From: an uncultured Bacteroidales bacterium
Lineage (GTDB): Bacteria; Bacteroidota; Bacteroidia; Bacteroidales; WCHB1-69
Assembly (NCBI GenBank): GCA_900315705.1
Contig: ONAB01000011.1
Coordinates: 62,001-126,000 of the forward strand
Direction of reading: 5' to 3'
DNA length: 64,000 nucleotides
The notes below the pieces were generated by a model. That model saw only the letters and a program-made list of their open reading frames with translations. It was not told the DNA's origin and ran no database searches. Of the stretch, positions 8,818 to 48,601 are shown in pieces (positions within the stretch are counted from its first letter, which is position 1; every line of letters starts with the position of its first letter). The position numbers and the translations under genes were made by a program.

Positions 8818-10866
8818 TTAACGCTTGACAAACTTCGCGTAACGCACCCCTTTATCTGTAACTATACGGAACAAATAGAGTCCCGAGGGGAGATCTGAAA
8901 CGACCACATCATATTGTGTAGCGGTGCGAAGCAGGCGCCCCCCCATATCATAAACGGACACCTCTTGAAGGCAGGTCTCCTCACCCTCCAATTCAATGTA
9001 AACCGTATGGCTGCCGGGATTGGGATAAAGTTTCACGTCCATAGCCGGCTTCGTGTATGGAGACAACCCGACATTATAGGGGACGGCAAACTCATCGCGA
9101 TGATAGGCGCCGAAAACAGCCCTGCTGGTGGGCCCGGCAAAATAGAGAACGGAGTCAATCTGCATATTGCTCCAAACATCCAAGGCAACCAAAAGATCGC
9201 CATTCGGTTGCGGCTGGATCAGGTGCGTGTATTGAACCCTGTCAACCTGGAGCGGTATAGTGTCAATAAAAGTGCCGTCAATGCCCCATACTCCGATAAA
9301 GATCTTGTCGCTGTTTTCATCCTTAACCCAACCAGCAAGAGAAAACACGCGGTTTCCATAGACAAATTTCTGTGCGTGTCCATACGCAGCCAATAGCATC
9401 CCTCTCCAACCGTTGTAGTAGCATGTGCCATAATTGATGAAAGCACCCGACTGGCTGTTGTAACGGACCGTCAAGGGGAAATAATAGTGCGCCAGACCCT
9501 CCTGGGCGCCACCACGGTCAAACAACACTCCGTCGCCTAACAAAAGGGTGTCCTGATTGGAATCCGAGGTGACTGAACCAAGCACATAGACGGAATTGTC
9601 GGCGACAGCGATGCCTCCATAAGACACGCTGGCTCCTTTAAAATGGGGTTGCTGCACCCATGCCACATCGCCCTGAGGGGTCAGCTTCACCAAAAAAGGA
9701 TTGCCGCACGTCACCTCATCACCATTCGAACAATCGACCGAATGCAAACTATCCACAAACACTCTGGAAGGATATTGGGTAGGATGGCTACTGAGTTTGC
9801 CCGACAGATACAAATTGTCCTCCTCATCCGCAGCAAAACCTAATAATTCAAGTGTAAAAAAGGGTGCCCAGCCCTGCTCGGTAAGGGAATCCAAACTACC
9901 ATAATGGGCAAGATAATAATCCCTCATCAGCATCATATTCTCCGTATCTCTGAAGAGCAGTTTGTGGGAAAGCAGTCGCCCGTCAGGGGAGAACTTGTAA
10001 AACGCAGTCGATTGGAAAGAGCATATATGGCCTGTAGTGCCCGGCAGGTAAAGATCATATGTGCGGGTGCTGTCGCCGCAATAGACCACTATAGTGAAAG
10101 GGTCTTCCTCATTACCGTTATATTGAAACGGGGAGATAATACAAATTTTCCCTTCCGAATCCCGATGCAAGAGCGATGGATTGATAAAAAGGTTATTCTT
10201 GCCACGTGTTTGCGTACCGGGGTACATTGTCCTGTTGTAACTTTCAATAAAAATCTTGTTCAGCACCTGACCGTCCAAGTCAAGCGTGACAATAAAATCG
10301 TAATGGCCAGAACAGAAAGGCGGTTTTCGCAAGCTGGCAGGCAACGTATGGACATCGTGACCAGTCACCATCGTATCTATGAACCAGCACCATGGACCAT
10401 AACCCGAAGCGCCACCATAATCCATATAGCAATTACCCGCCACCAATATCTGGCCATCGCGCAACTCCATAGCCGCAGGATAGAGACGATTATAGCCATT
10501 TAGGCTGATAATGCGGTGCCAAACCTGATTTCCGAGAGTGTCGAACTTGGCTATCAGGAGATTATATGTGCCTAACGACACCACCTGGGAGCCCAGTTCT
10601 TCCGCCACATAACCTTCGGAGGGTGAATTTCCCCAACAGGCATCGCTCCCGAAAAAGCCGAAACAGTAGATATTGCCCTCGTCATCGGTCTCCATAGTGA
10701 TAATCCTGTTTTTAAAGGTTGGGGAATTTCCGTCGTGACCCATATAGGAACGGAACCACTTCCAATATCCTGCAGTATCCTGCGCCACGGCAGTAATCAT
10801 CAAGCCGACAAAACATATAACTGCATTTACGCGCAAGGCAAAAGAGAGGATTTGCTTTCTTTTCAT
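8818..10866 (-). CDS. T9SS type A sorting-domain secreted protein
   Basis: A 682-residue secreted protein. The N-terminus has a basic start and hydrophobic signal segment (about 1-29). The middle is made of beta-rich segments with repeated patterns such as GNIYCFGFFGSDACW, GQILVAGNCY, NNLFINPSLL and NSVYVLGSVTSD. These resemble beta-propeller (SBBP-like) blades that read out values over steps. The C-terminal about 75 residues are a type A sorting domain: VKLYPNPGSHTVYIELEG, EVSVYDMGGRLL, LPSGLYLFRI and a basic end KFVKR. The T9SS should export it across the outer membrane and remove the domain. It stands alone on the minus strand and faces fusA divergently. Its specific function is not recognisable. 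Confidence 0.85.
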   Translation of the reverse strand: MKRKQILSFALRVNAVICFVGLMITAVAQDTAGYWKWFRSYMGHDGNSPTFKNRIITMETDDEGNIYCFGFFGSDACWGNSPSEGYVAEELGSQVVSLGTYNLLIAKFDTLGNQVWHRIISLNGYNRLYPAAMELRDGQILVAGNCYMDYGGASGYGPWCWFIDTMVTGHDVHTLPASLRKPPFCSGHYDFIVTLDLDGQVLNKIFIESYNRTMYPGTQTRGKNNLFINPSLLHRDSEGKICIISPFQYNGNEEDPFTIVVYCGDSTRTYDLYLPGTTGHICSFQSTAFYKFSPDGRLLSHKLLFRDTENMMLMRDYYLAHYGSLDSLTEQGWAPFFTLELLGFAADEEDNLYLSGKLSSHPTQYPSRVFVDSLHSVDCSNGDEVTCGNPFLVKLTPQGDVAWVQQPHFKGASVSYGGIAVADNSVYVLGSVTSDSNQDTLLLGDGVLFDRGGAQEGLAHYYFPLTVRYNSQSGAFINYGTCYYNGWRGMLLAAYGHAQKFVYGNRVFSLAGWVKDENSDKIFIGVWGIDGTFIDTIPLQVDRVQYTHLIQPQPNGDLLVALDVWSNMQIDSVLYFAGPTSRAVFGAYHRDEFAVPYNVGLSPYTKPAMDVKLYPNPGSHTVYIELEGEETCLQEVSVYDMGGRLLRTATQYDVVVSDLPSGLYLFRIVTDKGVRYAKFVKR

Positions 10867-43199: not shown

Positions 43200-44120
43200 A
43201 TGAACACCGCAGAACTCAAAACCGAAATCGCTCGCCTCAAGCGCGAGAAGAACGCCATCATCCTGGCACATTACTATACACTTCCTGAAGTGCAGGAGGT
43301 GGCCGACTATGTAGGCGACAGTCTGGGGCTGGCCCGCAAGGCCGCCGCCACGGACGCCGACATCATCCTCTTCGCCGGCGTGCATTTTATGGCCGAGACC
43401 GCCAAAATCCTCAACCCCACCAAGAAGGTGCTGGTGCCGGATATGAGCGCGGGTTGCTCCTTGGCAAACAGCTGCAAGGCCGAAAAGCTTGCCGAATTCA
43501 AGGCGAAGCACCCCGACCACAAGGTGCTGGCCTACGTCAACTGCACGGCCGCGGTGAAAGCCCAGTGCGACCTGATCGTCACCTCCGGCAACGCCCTGAA
43601 GCTGGTGAACCAGCTGCCCCAGGACGAGAAGATCATCTTCGTGCCCGACGGCAACCTCGGCGACTACATCAACCGGATGACGGGCCGCCAGATGCTTCTC
43701 TGGGATGGTGCCTGCTGCGTGCACGACCATTATGAGGTGGAGGATTTGGAGAAGGCCAAGGCCGAGCATCCTAACGCTTTGGTGGTGGCGCATCCCGAGT
43801 GCCGCCGCGAGTTGTTGGAGAAGGTGGATTTCATCGGCTCCACCGCCGCGATGCTCAACTTCATCGGCGAGAGCGAGGCCAAGGAGTTCATCGTCGTCAC
43901 CGAGAGCGGCATCCTCTACGAGATGCAGAAGCGCAACCCCGACAAGAAGCTCTACACGCTCTACAACGGCGCCGTCAAGCACGACTGCGTGAATATGAAG
44001 AAGAACAACCTGCTGAACATCTACGCCGCCCTGCTCGAGGAGCAGCCGGAGCTCGTTATGGATGAGGAATTGAGAAAGAAGGCGCTGGTGCCGATCCAGA
44101 GGATGCTTGATCTGAGTTAA
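43200..44120 (+). CDS. nadA: Quinolinate synthase
   Basis: A 306-residue Fe-S enzyme that condenses iminoaspartate with dihydroxyacetone phosphate to quinolinate in NAD synthesis. Motifs present: ADIILFAGVHFMAETAKIL, the first cluster Cys in DMSAGCSLANSC, NCTAAVKAQCD, VTSGNALK, PDGNLGDYI, HPECRRELLEKVDFIGSTAAML with the second Cys, and the last cluster Cys near NGAVKHDCVNM. Length and order are normal. The ATG at 43200 is chosen because the conserved N-terminus (LKTEIARLKREKNAIILAHYY) follows it directly; a start at 43152 would lie in the repeat. No nadB or nadC gene is adjacent. The sequence just ahead of the ATG is a tandem repeat, so the leader is repeat-derived. Confidence 0.92.
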   Translation: MNTAELKTEIARLKREKNAIILAHYYTLPEVQEVADYVGDSLGLARKAAATDADIILFAGVHFMAETAKILNPTKKVLVPDMSAGCSLANSCKAEKLAEFKAKHPDHKVLAYVNCTAAVKAQCDLIVTSGNALKLVNQLPQDEKIIFVPDGNLGDYINRMTGRQMLLWDGACCVHDHYEVEDLEKAKAEHPNALVVAHPECRRELLEKVDFIGSTAAMLNFIGESEAKEFIVVTESGILYEMQKRNPDKKLYTLYNGAVKHDCVNMKKNNLLNIYAALLEEQPELVMDEELRKKALVPIQRMLDLS

Positions 44121-44151
44121 GAATGAAGAATTAAGAATGAAGAATTATTAA
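44117..44151 (+). repeat. Family E short repeat (ttaagaatgaagaa words)
   Basis: Tandem ttaagaatgaagaa words just past the nadA stop and before a small membrane-protein gene. Confidence 0.75.
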
Positions 44152-44174
44152 CGAACACGAAATCATAATTACCT

Positions 44175-44411
44175 ATGAAAGATGGATGGGGCGGGGGCTG
44201 CTACCAGATTTTCGAGTTCATAGGATTGTATGTCCGATATTTCATCTCCAAATTGTTGCGGATGGACATCTCCCTCACGGAATTGTCAGGCGAGAAGGAT
44301 TACCCGTACATTGACACGCGCCAGCGCATCAAGTGCCTCGTAGTGGGGATTTTGACAGTCGTGGCCTTATTTGCAGGGATAGTATTTATAATTTACAAAA
44401 TGGAGCAGTGA
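44175..44411 (+). CDS. Small membrane protein, unknown function
   Basis: A 78-residue open frame, 54 nt after nadA. Two hydrophobic stretches are visible at about 12-27 (IFEFIGLYVRYFISKLL) and 55-75 (LVVGILTVVALFAGIVFII); the second is a clear transmembrane helix. An acidic polar stretch joins them. I do not recognise the family. It is followed at once by two family C repeat units. It could be a genuine co-transcribed small protein or a chance frame; the strong C-terminal helix with a charged end (YKMEQ) makes the former more likely. Confidence 0.5.
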   Translation: MKDGWGGGCYQIFEFIGLYVRYFISKLLRMDISLTELSGEKDYPYIDTRQRIKCLVVGILTVVALFAGIVFIIYKMEQ

Positions 44412-44421
44412 GTATTTTGCT

Positions 44422-44604
44422 CCTTGAGCAGCCTCGAAGAGGCAAAACGCGCGAAGCGCAAGTAACCCCACACAAGCGACAAAGGAGCGCAGTGTGGTGC
44501 CGTAAGGAGGAGACATCTTCCTCGAGCAGCCTCGAAGAGGCAAAACGCGCGAAGCACAATTAACCCCGCACAAGCGACGAAGGAGCGCAGTGTGGGGCAT
44601 AGCG
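44422..44604 (+). repeat. Structured repeat family C, two units
   Basis: Two units 98 bp apart (gagcagcc at 44426 and 44524). Each has hairpin 1 GCCTC-GAA-GAGGC, an added aaaacgcgcgaag insert, and hairpin 2 with arms CCACAC/GTGTGG or CCGCAC/GTGTGG. The sequence differs from the 43-kb copies but the pairing is kept. Confidence 0.85.
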
Positions 44605-44655
44605 GCAACCCGCGATGCAAGCGTGTCGGAGACACGCCACTACAATCAAAAATCG
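44605..44655. repeat. Hairpin-bearing intergenic element
   Basis: atagcggcaacccgcgatgc followed by the perfect hairpin GCGTGTC-GGA-GACACGC and cactacaat. It looks like another dispersed intergenic element, similar in style to repeat F; only one copy is in this window. Confidence 0.45.
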
Positions 44656-45750: not shown

Positions 45751-45782
45751 CAGCCGTAAATTGACACCCGCAGAAGAGAGTG

Positions 45783-47522
45783 ATGCGGGGTATTTTCATC
45801 AGATTACTGAACACCAATCGGTTCCACATAGAACGACACACAACAACCGACCACGAACTTTATTCGCAACAATTTATACAAAAACGAGTTAGACAAAGTC
45901 TCCAATCTATTATATACCCAATCATTACTAATATGATAAAAGTTAGACTTGACGCAAAGACCATAAACCAAATTGACAATAATATTAACCCAAATATCGG
46001 GAATTGGATACTCGACAGTTGGCTTGTATCTAATGATACCTTTGTTGAACAAGACACCCCAGTATGCAAAGTGTTTTACACGTTAACAGAACATTATTAC
46101 ACCATATGCAGTCCGGTAAAAGGATATCTTAAATATTCTATTGATGTTGAAAGAGGGGAACATCATACATCCGGAGATTTTCTTAGAGAAAACGACGGTG
46201 TAATAGATGGATTGGGTGATGATGTATTGAATGATTATGGATTGATTTATGATATCTGTTATATTTTTGAAAACCCGATTTTTTTCCATATTCAAGATGT
46301 TATCGACAATAATTCTGGCGATTCTGTTTCATTTGACAATTATTTACAAAGGGCCGATGTTCGTTACTGTTGGAAAGTGAAAGATGGTGATTATGTGGAG
46401 AAGGGGGATGTCCTGCTACAAATAGGACGAGACGAGAAATCGTATGGTGAACCTCTTTCTAAAACGTACTTCTGCGAAGAAGATACTATTGATTTTGAAA
46501 TAGCAGCACCAAGCAATGGTTATGTTAATATCAACAATATCTTCGGCGAGTATGGCGAATTACTGCGCGATTACGATTCAAGTGCGCCATTCTTGACCGA
46601 AGGAAGGGTGCTGTGTGAAATTTTACAGAAACCTTTAATCAAGCCCAAATGGATTACTCTTTGTGGCAAAAAAGATCTCTTCAATAAAGAACTAAGTATT
46701 TATCGCACAGAGGATGACATTTTTTGGAAAAGAATGTCTTTATTTTCTGTTCCTTTTGGTTTAATACATTTAGCTTTTCTTTATCATCACTACCAATTGT
46801 CATTGTTTATTGAATACTGCAAAAAATCAGTTACAATAAAAAAGACAGACACAATACAATTTGCCTTTTACAACAACAAAACTCTCACATTAGATTTACA
46901 AACAAAGAGTCACAAATTACCTATTGAGAACAGCAAATTCTATCACGTCGACCACTTCAGATCCCTGCTGTTAGGCCACAAATCATCTATTGAGAGCAAT
47001 AAAGGCTATTATTTCATTGAATTACCCATAACCACCTCGGATTTAGAACTCTTCACAGACAGTTTAGTGAAGATTTGCAGAATATCATCGAAAACAAGAC
47101 TGGAACCTATTGAGTGCTTACCACCGTTTACTAAAACTGACACCATTTTACTCAGAGATTATGCCATTGCAATGTATGAGAAACTCCGTGAAAGCAATTT
47201 GTTAGATCAACCTTTGCAAGAGGAAACAAAGTCCAATAAAAATGAATCCGACGAAGATGAATGCTATGTGTATATAATGGAAGATACAGTAAATCATTAC
47301 TTCAAGATTGGTATTTCGAACAAACCAGAATATCGTGAAAAGACGCTACAAAGTGAAAAGCCCACAATTGAACTGTTACGGTGCAAGCAATATCCTTCAA
47401 GAAAAATCGCCAAAGCCATTGAATCAGCACTTCACGAGAGTTTCTCGAATAAACATTTAAGAGGCGAATGGTTTGAACTAGATGAATTAGAAGTTAATCA
47501 AATCATCAAAACATTATCATAG
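45783..47522 (+). CDS. Lipoyl-like/GIY-YIG (T5orf172-type) fusion protein
   Basis: A 579-residue protein with an unusual build. Two segments, about 75-145 and 190-265, have the hammerhead pattern of biotinyl/lipoyl-like domains (VSNDTFVEQDTPVCKVFY, then VKDGDYVEKGDVLLQIGRD with EIAAPSNGYV) but lack the modified Lys. About residues 310-345 are hydrophobic and aromatic. The last about 90 residues form a GIY-YIG-like nuclease of the T5orf172/MUG113 type: CYVYIMEDT, FKIGISNKPEYRE, AKAIESALHESF and GEWFEL. The gene is strongly AT-rich compared with its neighbours, so it is probably acquired. It precedes an Abi_2 gene on the opposite strand. The start is uncertain: ATG 45783 fits the promoter, while ATG 45933 begins at the first recognisable domain. 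Confidence 0.65.
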   Translation: MRGIFIRLLNTNRFHIERHTTTDHELYSQQFIQKRVRQSLQSIIYPIITNMIKVRLDAKTINQIDNNINPNIGNWILDSWLVSNDTFVEQDTPVCKVFYTLTEHYYTICSPVKGYLKYSIDVERGEHHTSGDFLRENDGVIDGLGDDVLNDYGLIYDICYIFENPIFFHIQDVIDNNSGDSVSFDNYLQRADVRYCWKVKDGDYVEKGDVLLQIGRDEKSYGEPLSKTYFCEEDTIDFEIAAPSNGYVNINNIFGEYGELLRDYDSSAPFLTEGRVLCEILQKPLIKPKWITLCGKKDLFNKELSIYRTEDDIFWKRMSLFSVPFGLIHLAFLYHHYQLSLFIEYCKKSVTIKKTDTIQFAFYNNKTLTLDLQTKSHKLPIENSKFYHVDHFRSLLLGHKSSIESNKGYYFIELPITTSDLELFTDSLVKICRISSKTRLEPIECLPPFTKTDTILLRDYAIAMYEKLRESNLLDQPLQEETKSNKNESDEDECYVYIMEDTVNHYFKIGISNKPEYREKTLQSEKPTIELLRCKQYPSRKIAKAIESALHESFSNKHLRGEWFELDELEVNQIIKTLS

Positions 47523-47626: not shown

Positions 47627-48523
47627 TCAATTCCACAACAATTCCTGTTGCCAATTACTAGGAAAACCAAGGGCTCCAGGATTGACATCAGGATAGTTTT
47701 CAAACAAATTTATAAGGTCTTGTGGCAATGTATTATCTGGGGCAATGATGTTCAGCCAATAGCGTATGATAGCTAGAACGAAATAGACACGTTGAGTGTT
47801 GGTGACAGACTGTGTGATAAAGGTGTTGCGCGGATGGCGAGGCACCAATGGACGAACTCCCAGGGTACGATTCCACAAGCGGGCGTGGTGAGCACAAATG
47901 TTTCGGATATAAACCAGTGTATGAAGCCACGAGGCAAACACCGTGTCACTTACGCCAAAGGCAGCGGCAACATCTCTCCTTGGAAGCCCCGGTTTCAAGT
48001 TCTGATATAAAATGGACATAGTACCAAACGAAGTGATTTCCAGCGTAATCCAACTGGGTGGCAAAGGATTGGAATATTTCCACCGGAAGGATCTGACAAA
48101 CTGCTCATCACTACGCAAATATTCATCCTGGATACTGACAATCGTTTTGGTGTGTTTAGCCTGATGGCAGAAAAGACTTGCATTCTCGAACCAGTACCCG
48201 TCATATGCCATTGACATCACATAAGCCATTTGTGTACGAATAGCCACTTCAATAGGTTCAATACACGAAAGCACGATTTTACGCAAATGGCTATCAAACT
48301 CGTAAAGCATTCGAGCTTGTTCAAACGTGCTACCTGTCTTAAAAATATGATTCTCCCTGTCGGCCAAGAGTGGATACCAGTAGCCACTCATCCGATAATA
48401 GCTTACTCTGCGAAGCCAAGCTTCAGCATCGTTTTCGTTGGCGATCACCATTCCGCGCTGCTTCAAAATGCTTATCTGGCCGGCAAATGTCTGTATTTGT
48501 TTAGAATAAGGTATTTTCTTCAT
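47627..48523 (-). CDS. Abi_2 family HEPN protein (AbiF/AbiD-like)
   Basis: A 298-residue abortive-infection protein of the Abi_2 (PF07751) family. N-terminal YSKQIQTFAGQISILKQRGMVI and WLRRVSYYRMSGYWYPL are family signatures. The HEPN RNase motif R-x4-H is visible as RNICAHHARLWNR at about 205-217. Members act as RNA-cutting toxins that stop phage growth. Recent work links AbiF-type proteins to upstream structured non-coding RNAs and proposes them as relatives of the Cas13 ancestor. Here a promoter and a stable hairpin with a T-run lie just upstream, in line with that layout. The gene is convergent with the GIY-YIG fusion gene and more AT-rich than the surrounding core genes. Confidence 0.85.
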   Translation of the reverse strand: MKKIPYSKQIQTFAGQISILKQRGMVIANENDAEAWLRRVSYYRMSGYWYPLLADRENHIFKTGSTFEQARMLYEFDSHLRKIVLSCIEPIEVAIRTQMAYVMSMAYDGYWFENASLFCHQAKHTKTIVSIQDEYLRSDEQFVRSFRWKYSNPLPPSWITLEITSFGTMSILYQNLKPGLPRRDVAAAFGVSDTVFASWLHTLVYIRNICAHHARLWNRTLGVRPLVPRHPRNTFITQSVTNTQRVYFVLAIIRYWLNIIAPDNTLPQDLINLFENYPDVNPGALGFPSNWQQELLWN

Positions 48524-48532
48524 AACTTTAGT

Positions 48533-48587
48533 AAAAAAAAAGGCTTACCCTAAGCGCGCTGTTCTCTGGGAAGCGGGGTAAGCTTGT
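48533..48587 (-). ncRNA. Putative short structured RNA/attenuator upstream of the Abi gene
   Basis: Between a minus-strand -7 box (48594-48601) and the Abi start codon (48523) lies a hairpin: GCTTACCC (48576-48583) pairs with GGGTAAGC (48543-48550) on the minus strand, an inner CGC/GCG can extend it, and T8-9 follows. Transcription would start near 48587 and could stop at about 48533, giving an RNA of about 55 nt. It may be the RNA partner of the Abi protein or an attenuator. Boundaries are approximate. Confidence 0.55.
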
Positions 48588-48593
48588 TGGGTG

Positions 48594-48601
48594 CAAAAAT
48601 A
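48594..48601 (-). promoter_or_regulatory. -7 box for the structured RNA and Abi gene
   Basis: TATTTTTG on the minus strand, followed within about 10 nt by the hairpin RNA. Confidence 0.65.

Follow-up and report, generated by a model that had tools for sequence, protein, structure and literature searches.

An AbiF homologue and its leader

The minus strand of the window (by which we mean the whole 64,000-nucleotide stretch of DNA from an uncultured Bacteroidales bacterium that was analysed here) carries an open reading frame (ORF) whose predicted product is an AbiF homologue, and the sequence just upstream of its start codon is predicted to form a structured leader (Table 1). The product matches the Pfam family PF07751 (Abi_2) over residues 36-218 (5.4e-56; 190.2 bits against a cut-off of 25.6), PADLOC assigns it to AbiD (8.7e-73), and a phmmer search with the 298-aa protein finds a single related PDB sequence, 8VZ6 (1e-63, residues 3-297). 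In the alignment with 8VZ6, RNICAHH of the window protein falls on RNSCCHH, so that the HEPN motif R-x4-H is present, as RNICAH at residues 207-212; the preliminary description of this DNA, which had named an Abi_2 family protein with an intact HEPN motif, was right on both points. By identity, the closest homologues are those of rumen Prevotella and Bacteroidales MAGs (71-81%). A whole-genome search finds two abiF genes in total in the window's own genome, the second being a paralogue with 35% identity (G000:C11).

Table 1. Features of the abiF locus, in window positions
Feature	Position	Strand	Evidence
-7 box TATTTTTG, TAnnTTTG	48594..48601	-	box in 18/19 homologous leaders
Predicted abiF-type antitoxin RNA (AbiFr) of about 55 nt, with both ends predicted	48533..48587	-	alignment, covariation, R1 score
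Outer stem, 5' arm GCTTACCC, 8 bp	48576..48583	-	complementarity, covariation, fold
Inner stem, 5' side CGC	48573..48575	-	covariation, fold; CCC/GGG replaces CGC/GCG in L041 and L042
Loop TTCCCAGAGAACA, 13 nt	48560..48572	-	TTC.C...GA.CA invariant across 19 leaders
Inner stem, 3' side GCG	48557..48559	-	covariation, fold
3' bulge CGCTTA, 6 nt	48551..48556	-	leader alignment
Outer stem, 3' arm GGGTAAGC	48543..48550	-	complementarity, covariation, fold
T9, intrinsic terminator-like site with hairpin (attenuator), before abiF	48533..48541	-	T-run in 19/19 leaders
abiF ORF, Abi_2/AbiF HEPN protein, 298 aa	47627..48523	-	Pfam, PADLOC and PDB matches
HEPN motif codons, RNICAH (R207, H212; residues 207-212)	47888..47905	-	alignment with 8VZ6

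Read along the minus strand, the leader consists of TATTTTTG, 10 nt, the series GCTTACCC CGC TTCCCAGAGAACA GCG CGCTTA GGGTAAGC, a single C, T9, nine bases and the ATG (48523). The box has the form TAnnTTTG, which we take to be the -7 promoter box of the Bacteroidota type. The hairpin comprises 11 bp and is bipartite: an 8-bp outer stem encloses a 3-bp CGC/GCG stem, with the bulge CGCUUA on the 3' side. Its fold z-score is -2.66, and equal stability was reached by 2 of 200 shuffled sequences. The layout put forward earlier, namely a box, a hairpin about 10 nt further on, a T-run and the start codon, is found on the minus strand in every part (TATTTTTG at 48601-48594, T9 at 48541-48533). The stable stem that had been proposed is likewise there, but the hairpin is not a plain one, since the 3-bp inner stem and the 6-nt bulge lie inside it.

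Convergent with abiF, on the plus strand at 45780-47522, is a 580-aa ORF with a C-terminal T5orf172/MUG113 domain and, in Pfam, a weak biotinyl/lipoyl-like stretch; near the corresponding place in genome G003 there is a different ORF, of 379 aa. Short additional BLAST matches further show that short stretches of the window at about 44000-44650 recur in genomes G003 and G032.

Conservation and covariation of the leader RNA

We found the element directly upstream of the start codon in many homologues' leaders, which were drawn from homologues in genome contigs and from family genomes. Alignment A2 holds 19 leaders of the window's class out of a wider set of 27, the eight left out being seven in which a bulged A precedes the inner stem and one (L055) with an extra stem base. 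In A2, 99.5% of stem cells pair and both partners are changed in 5 of the 11 pairs; none of 500 shuffles (mean 0.143) reached the observed covariation score, 0.268. The covariance model that the preliminary description had called for was built from homologous leaders (R1), and its stems covary as just described; the window RNA, which is itself an R1 training sequence, scores 77.2 bits. The TAnnTTTG box was found in 18 of the 19 leaders when 22 nt upstream and the first 3 nt were searched, compared with 107 of 7800 random windows of the same 25 nt, and a T-run lies 3' of the element in all 19.

To follow the element across the wider family, 111 Abi_2 loci were collected, of which 103 were usable (in the other 8 the gene was truncated or too little upstream sequence was available) and 101 non-identical. 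A structural descriptor, composed post hoc when the leaders had already been inspected and altered after an earlier version had been satisfied in 34 of the 101, was satisfied upstream of 60 of these 101 genes and missed 41. Divided by identity, it was satisfied in 12 of 12 loci at 50% or more (the window included), 10 of 13 at 40-50%, 17 of 39 at 35-40% and 21 of 37 below that; among controls, it was satisfied by 19 of 1985 random windows taken from these loci and by 3 of 1010 leaders after resampling. The presence of the hairpin upstream of close homologues, on which the earlier reading had been staked, thus held in all 12 loci of the highest identity group. Together, these results support a conserved, predicted abiF-type RNA with a promoter box and a terminator-like T-run in many Bacteroidota.

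The leader might be merely a transcription attenuator or terminator that limits abiF in cis, its RNA having no role as a partner, because a hairpin with T9 just before a start codon looks like an intrinsic terminator and the T-run is found in 19/19 leaders. A terminator, however, needs no invariant letters in loop or bulge, and many loop and bulge positions are invariant across the 19 leaders of A2, which counts against this account. So do the presence of the same element in phages that have no Abi_2 to attenuate (120 of 124 viral records, see below) and the homologous RNA of C. difficile, which works in trans (PMC12373285). We therefore give a bare terminator hardly any credence. The leader hairpin is an abiF-type RNA that, by homology, would be both antitoxin and attenuator of AbiF, and the window RNA would act as the antitoxin of the window AbiF.

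Relation to Rfam family RF03085

The Rfam model of the abiF RNA, RF03085, did not report the window leader at E<=1 in 6 kb, nor at E<=10 when the 161 bases were searched alone. The window RNA is thus not among sequences scoring at least 37 bits and, as it is not listed by RF03085, we do not class it as a member. Its architecture is nevertheless that of the RF03085 RNA: it precedes Abi_2 and is made up of an outer helix, a 3-bp inner helix, a loop and a bulge of 6 nt on the 3' side. The two differ in the loop, which is of the CUCUCA...AUG type in RF03085 and UUCCC...GAACA in the window. The leader of the paralogue (L002) is intermediate: it reaches 26.6 bits with RF03085, below the cut-off of 37, and has CGCTTCCCA...AGAACAGCGC in common with the window leader. 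The module in the window is of a published kind, and its RNA belongs to a class that Rfam does not report.

Toxin-free copies in bacterial genomes

With R1 we obtained 21 matches in 16 of 105 family genomes. Within the fetched stretches (about 1.5 kb on each side), 16 of these 21 lie near an Abi_2 ORF or trace, counting a weak trace in G003 (E 0.024), and 5 do not, so that the RNA is not tied to abiF. A scan of the phylum with the same model matched 41 of 395 genomes; among 29 further loci fetched from it, 9 had no Abi_2 trace. The window's own genome contains one such free-standing class-A RNA (G000:C44:4410-4463; L153, L302), which scores 70.6 bits and is provided with a TACTTTTG box and a T-run of its own. 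The stretch fetched around it contains no Abi_2, and the genome's two abiF genes are on other contigs. Genome G034 shares its flanking sequence, with an adjacent ORF that is equally long (293 aa). In the window's genome, where phage-type genes were sought, one for a phage-type amidase is found some 2.4 kb from the G000:C44 RNA. Class-A RNAs also occur in tandem in one genome (L303; G051:C54, contig positions 10371 and 10273, 98 nt apart), with no Abi_2 trace in the fetched stretches; this arrangement resembles the two-motif layout of RCd22 in C. difficile.

In two genomes the toxin gene has been reduced beside the RNA. The abiF gene of G003 is internally deleted, with positions corresponding to about 47682-48466 of the window absent, which is most of the toxin gene, while the RNA region is kept (L112; G003:C20, about 2160-2420) and still scores 71.3 bits with R1. 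Retention of the RNA after loss of the toxin is expected of an antitoxin. Two loop bases of this RNA are altered, one of them invariant in A2, as is the promoter box, and the RNA may therefore be decaying. In G089, the RNA is followed by a C-terminal Abi_2 remnant. Such cases, in which the toxin is lost or truncated and the RNA remains, lend substance to the idea that orphan RNAs, both phage and chromosomal, are relics of AbiF modules that have shed their toxin and now lack a function; the viral copies described below bear on it.

Viral copies without Abi_2

Motif scans of IMG/VR recovered 124 viral contigs in all: a class-A core was found in 18 contigs, a relaxed form in 28 (including those 18), an inner-stem variant in 7 and an RF03085-type core in 89. 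When these contigs were searched whole, a PF07751 gene was present in 4 (128-198 bits), one in each of the batches of 18, 26, 40 and 40 records, and 120 of 124 had no match at E<=1, so that nearly all of these records carry the RNA without the cognate protein, as would be expected of a counter-defence element. Because viral records may be fragments, this absence holds per record; the control genomes had no match above the cut-off and thus provide no positive control. In two viral contigs without Abi_2 (L248, L256), an RF03085-type motif is followed by a second one at a distance of about 40 nt. A BLAST search of the window RNA against named phages gave no match. A weak BLAST match of the L037 RNA in an Erythrobacter phage (L301) was rejected: Rfam reports no abiF RNA there, and the flanks form no outer helix.

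Since the loop and bulge were set by the search patterns, their conservation in the viral orphans is not independent evidence; pairs outside the patterns covary. Of the 119 orphan elements whose record extends far enough on either side, 102 form an outer helix of at least 6 bp, whereas shuffling of the flanks in 50 rounds gave a mean of 2.3 and a maximum of 6. Among RF03085-type orphans, 94.5% of cells are paired in the best-pairing register (64 distinct elements), compared with 68.9% (maximum 74.2%) when the 3' letters were re-dealt, and 85.2% in a fixed register (59 distinct), compared with 64.1% (maximum 70.8%); for 30 distinct class-A orphans the values are 85.3% and 56.4% (maximum 65.3%). 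The covariation score of 15 class-A orphans (0.432) was equalled by none of 500 shuffles, while their number of both-side pair changes was equalled by 50 of 500. R1 gives at least 42 bits to 29 of the 34 class-A orphan records. Five elements found with the relaxed pattern (L186, L187, L188, L192 and L193) score 21-35 bits and are probably chance or degenerate matches, included in the totals. In 20 class-A orphans picked from the 34, the TAnnTTTG box lies just upstream in 5 and a T-run is present in 14.

Genomic setting of the viral copies

We examined the surroundings of 130 orphans, comprising 120 viral contigs and 10 named phages; of these, L301 is false and Redno2 is also present as viral contig L261. 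The named isolates yielded 19 and 62 matching records, partly overlapping, of which 9 were opened, the Erythrobacter phage making the tenth. The RF03085 cut-off was passed in 8 of the 10 (Redno2, S-SZBM1, S-SRM01, PZL-Ah8, CGphi29, S-CREM1, Lolly9 and MrMagoo), and PF07751 had no match at E<=1 in any of the ten genomes. An orphan touches a tRNA gene or lies within 10 nt of one in 30 of 130 cases (30 of 128 without L301 and the doubled Redno2), whereas 500 draws of random places in the same stretches gave a mean of 5.2 and a maximum of 12. All 33 orphans with a tRNA within 150 nt are on the strand of that tRNA. When orphans with shared flanks were merged, 94 contexts resulted, and in 18 of them a tRNA lies no more than 20 nt away. 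Among the isolates, the element adjoins tRNAs in S-SZBM1, S-CREM1 and Lolly9, and in MrMagoo it fills the gap that separates tRNA-Gly from tRNA-Val; in two phages assigned to the Autographiviridae, PZL-Ah8 and Pasto, it lies between structural or lysis genes. The orphan midpoint falls inside an ORF of at least 150 aa in 6 of 94 contexts, compared with 1050 of 1880 random positions.

These settings allow three further accounts of the viral RNAs to be weighed. The first is that the element serves the maturation or stability of tRNA arrays, as a spacer or processing signal, and that its likeness to AbiFr is secondary. The 30 of 130 orphans within 10 nt of a tRNA and the filled gap in MrMagoo would fit such a role, but 100 of 130 have no tRNA within that distance in the fetched stretch, and the search found the full antitoxin loop, for which a spacer has no need, the reversed RF03085-type pattern having returned 0 contigs. 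We regard this account as improbable, and think equally little of a second one, in which the RNAs would partner an unrecognised phage protein rather than host AbiF: although many ORFs adjoining the phage RNAs are annotated as hypothetical, clustering of all ORFs of at least 80 aa within 1.5 kb gave no protein family present in more than 4 of 94 contexts. The third is the relic account raised by G003 and G089. It sits poorly with the outer helix retained in 102 of 119 viral copies and the covarying pairs beyond the search pattern, with the placement of 30 of 130 copies at 0-10 nt from a tRNA and of 33 of 33 copies within 150 nt on its strand, with the location of other copies between structural genes in phages assigned to the Autographiviridae, and with the finding that 120 of 124 viral records have no PF07751 match at E<=1; the G003 remnant, in contrast, has changes in loop and promoter. 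As a general explanation we consider it unlikely, though less so than the other two; some phage copies could be relics.

An abiF sRNA of cyanophage S-CREM1, a phage described as lytic, is already in print, where three phage genomes in Rfam are also mentioned, and the portion of that paper devoted to the sRNA offers no counter-defence reading (PMC9964418). Our search of the open-licence PMC literature brought up no proposal that abiF RNAs of phages inhibit AbiF.

We also followed a lead from lactococcal phages. A region of phage sk1 is said to protect phage 712 from AbiF (reportedly the work of Rince, in 2000). RF03085 has no match in either sk1 or 712, comparison of both with the leader of the AbiF-like gene of the lactococcal phage TP712 gave short matches at chance level only, and a 511-base stretch of sk1 gave only short matches to plasmids. 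This lead gives no support to mimicry of the antitoxin by phages. In TP712 (L313, about 450-520), the AbiF-like gene is preceded by promoter-like and terminator-like sequence with a quite different loop, which perhaps represents another RNA class.

A proposed role in defence and counter-defence

At the locus itself, the protein family and its motif, the predicted RNA structure with its covariation and conservation, the box and the T-run are all in evidence, and we consider it very probable that together they constitute an AbiF-AbiFr module, a type III-like toxin-antitoxin or abortive-infection unit with an RNA of a Bacteroidota class. The statement in the preliminary description that AbiF-type proteins are paired with upstream RNAs and linked to the ancestor of Cas13 agrees with published work (PMC12373285, PMC12737573), in which AbiF is reported as that ancestor. 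Published homologues suggest how such a module would work. From a single promoter, transcription would usually stop at the T-run of the hairpin and yield an RNA of about 55 nt, and occasional read-through past the T-run would give the abiF mRNA, so that the RNA would outnumber the toxin. The RNA would bind the AbiF dimer and block its HEPN RNase, and a phage-induced loss of the balance between RNA and toxin would free the RNase. RNA-protein binding, inhibition and read-through all have counterparts in the C. difficile RNA RCd22. Transcribed from the abiF promoter and mostly terminated ahead of abiF, it neutralises AbiF whether supplied in cis or in trans, and the two co-purify (PMC12373285). 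In the same system, substitutions of the HEPN R and H abolish toxicity (PMC12373285). For AbiD1, a longer transcript is attributed to terminator read-through (PMC2661086). In PbAbiF, whose structure with the ncRNA is 8VZ6 according to a figure legend in a review, one RNA is bound per monomer and the RNase is inhibited by nucleotides of the bulge (PMC12737573); the bulge CGCTTA of the window would correspond to that bulge.

Outside the window, the likeliest reading of the phage copies is RNA mimicry of the AbiF antitoxin, in which an RNA without abiF would most likely act in trans and keep the host AbiF inhibited. We favour it because inhibition in trans is expected by homology, the RNAs occur in phages of several families, their structure is mostly intact, and part of them are placed beside tRNAs or behind a promoter-like box; phage RNAs of this kind also have precedents in pseudo-ToxI of PhiTE (PMC3475682) and in Racrs (PMC10651486). 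On balance, it seems rather probable that free-standing AbiFr-type RNAs serve many phages, among them S-CREM1 with its lytic description, as dedicated inhibitors of host AbiF, and that some of these RNAs would probably be released from tRNA arrays by tRNA processing. This would amount to a widespread counter-defence against a reported Cas13-ancestor family, perhaps matched in class (Bacteroidota-type or RF03085-type) to the host AbiF.

By itself, the window locus adds one more example to a kind of module already published. More surprising than the pairing of AbiF with an RNA is the RNA without the protein, which the first reading of this DNA had not seen. Phage evasion of AbiF, the reported ancestor of Cas13, is hardly known so far, and if our reading is true, free-standing phage antitoxin RNAs are an RNA counter-defence that gene-finding has overlooked, because they encode no protein and one of their classes is not reported by Rfam. 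Toxin-free abiF RNAs should accordingly not be taken as evidence of an AbiF system, and the question of what restrains and what releases AbiF becomes testable in laboratory strains.

Comparison with known systems

Among the closest known systems is PbAbiF-AbiFr (8VZ6; Zilberzwige-Tal et al., as cited in PMC12373285 and PMC12737573), whose protein sequence, which was the one compared, is homologous over residues 3-297 and has the HEPN R-x4-H. AbiFCd-RCd22 of C. difficile phi027 is similar to the window in having an RNA upstream of abiF with its own promoter and terminator, an Abi_2 protein and the motif RNQCAH (PMC12373285). RCd22 contains two RF03085 abiF motifs, whereas the window RNA is one motif of a class unreported by Rfam, and details may therefore differ (PMC12373285). 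As in type III systems, the predicted antitoxin RNA gene of the window lies upstream with a terminator-like site between it and the toxin gene, as far as the DNA itself can tell. Tandem repeats are called a key feature of type III antitoxins (PMC12373285), and R1 gives one strong match in the window; we therefore call the module type III-like.

For the phage RNAs, two known systems offer a comparison. Pseudo-ToxI, carried by phage PhiTE, copies the antitoxin RNA of a type III system and suppresses abortive infection by ToxIN (PMC3475682). It differs in that toxin and RNA are others and that its repeat was expanded in escape mutants, whereas the copies described here are mostly complete single ones in many phages. 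The RNA anti-CRISPRs, or Racrs, are likewise solitary phage RNAs that imitate the RNA partner of a defence system; their target is CRISPR-Cas (PMC10651486), whereas in the present reading it would be AbiF.
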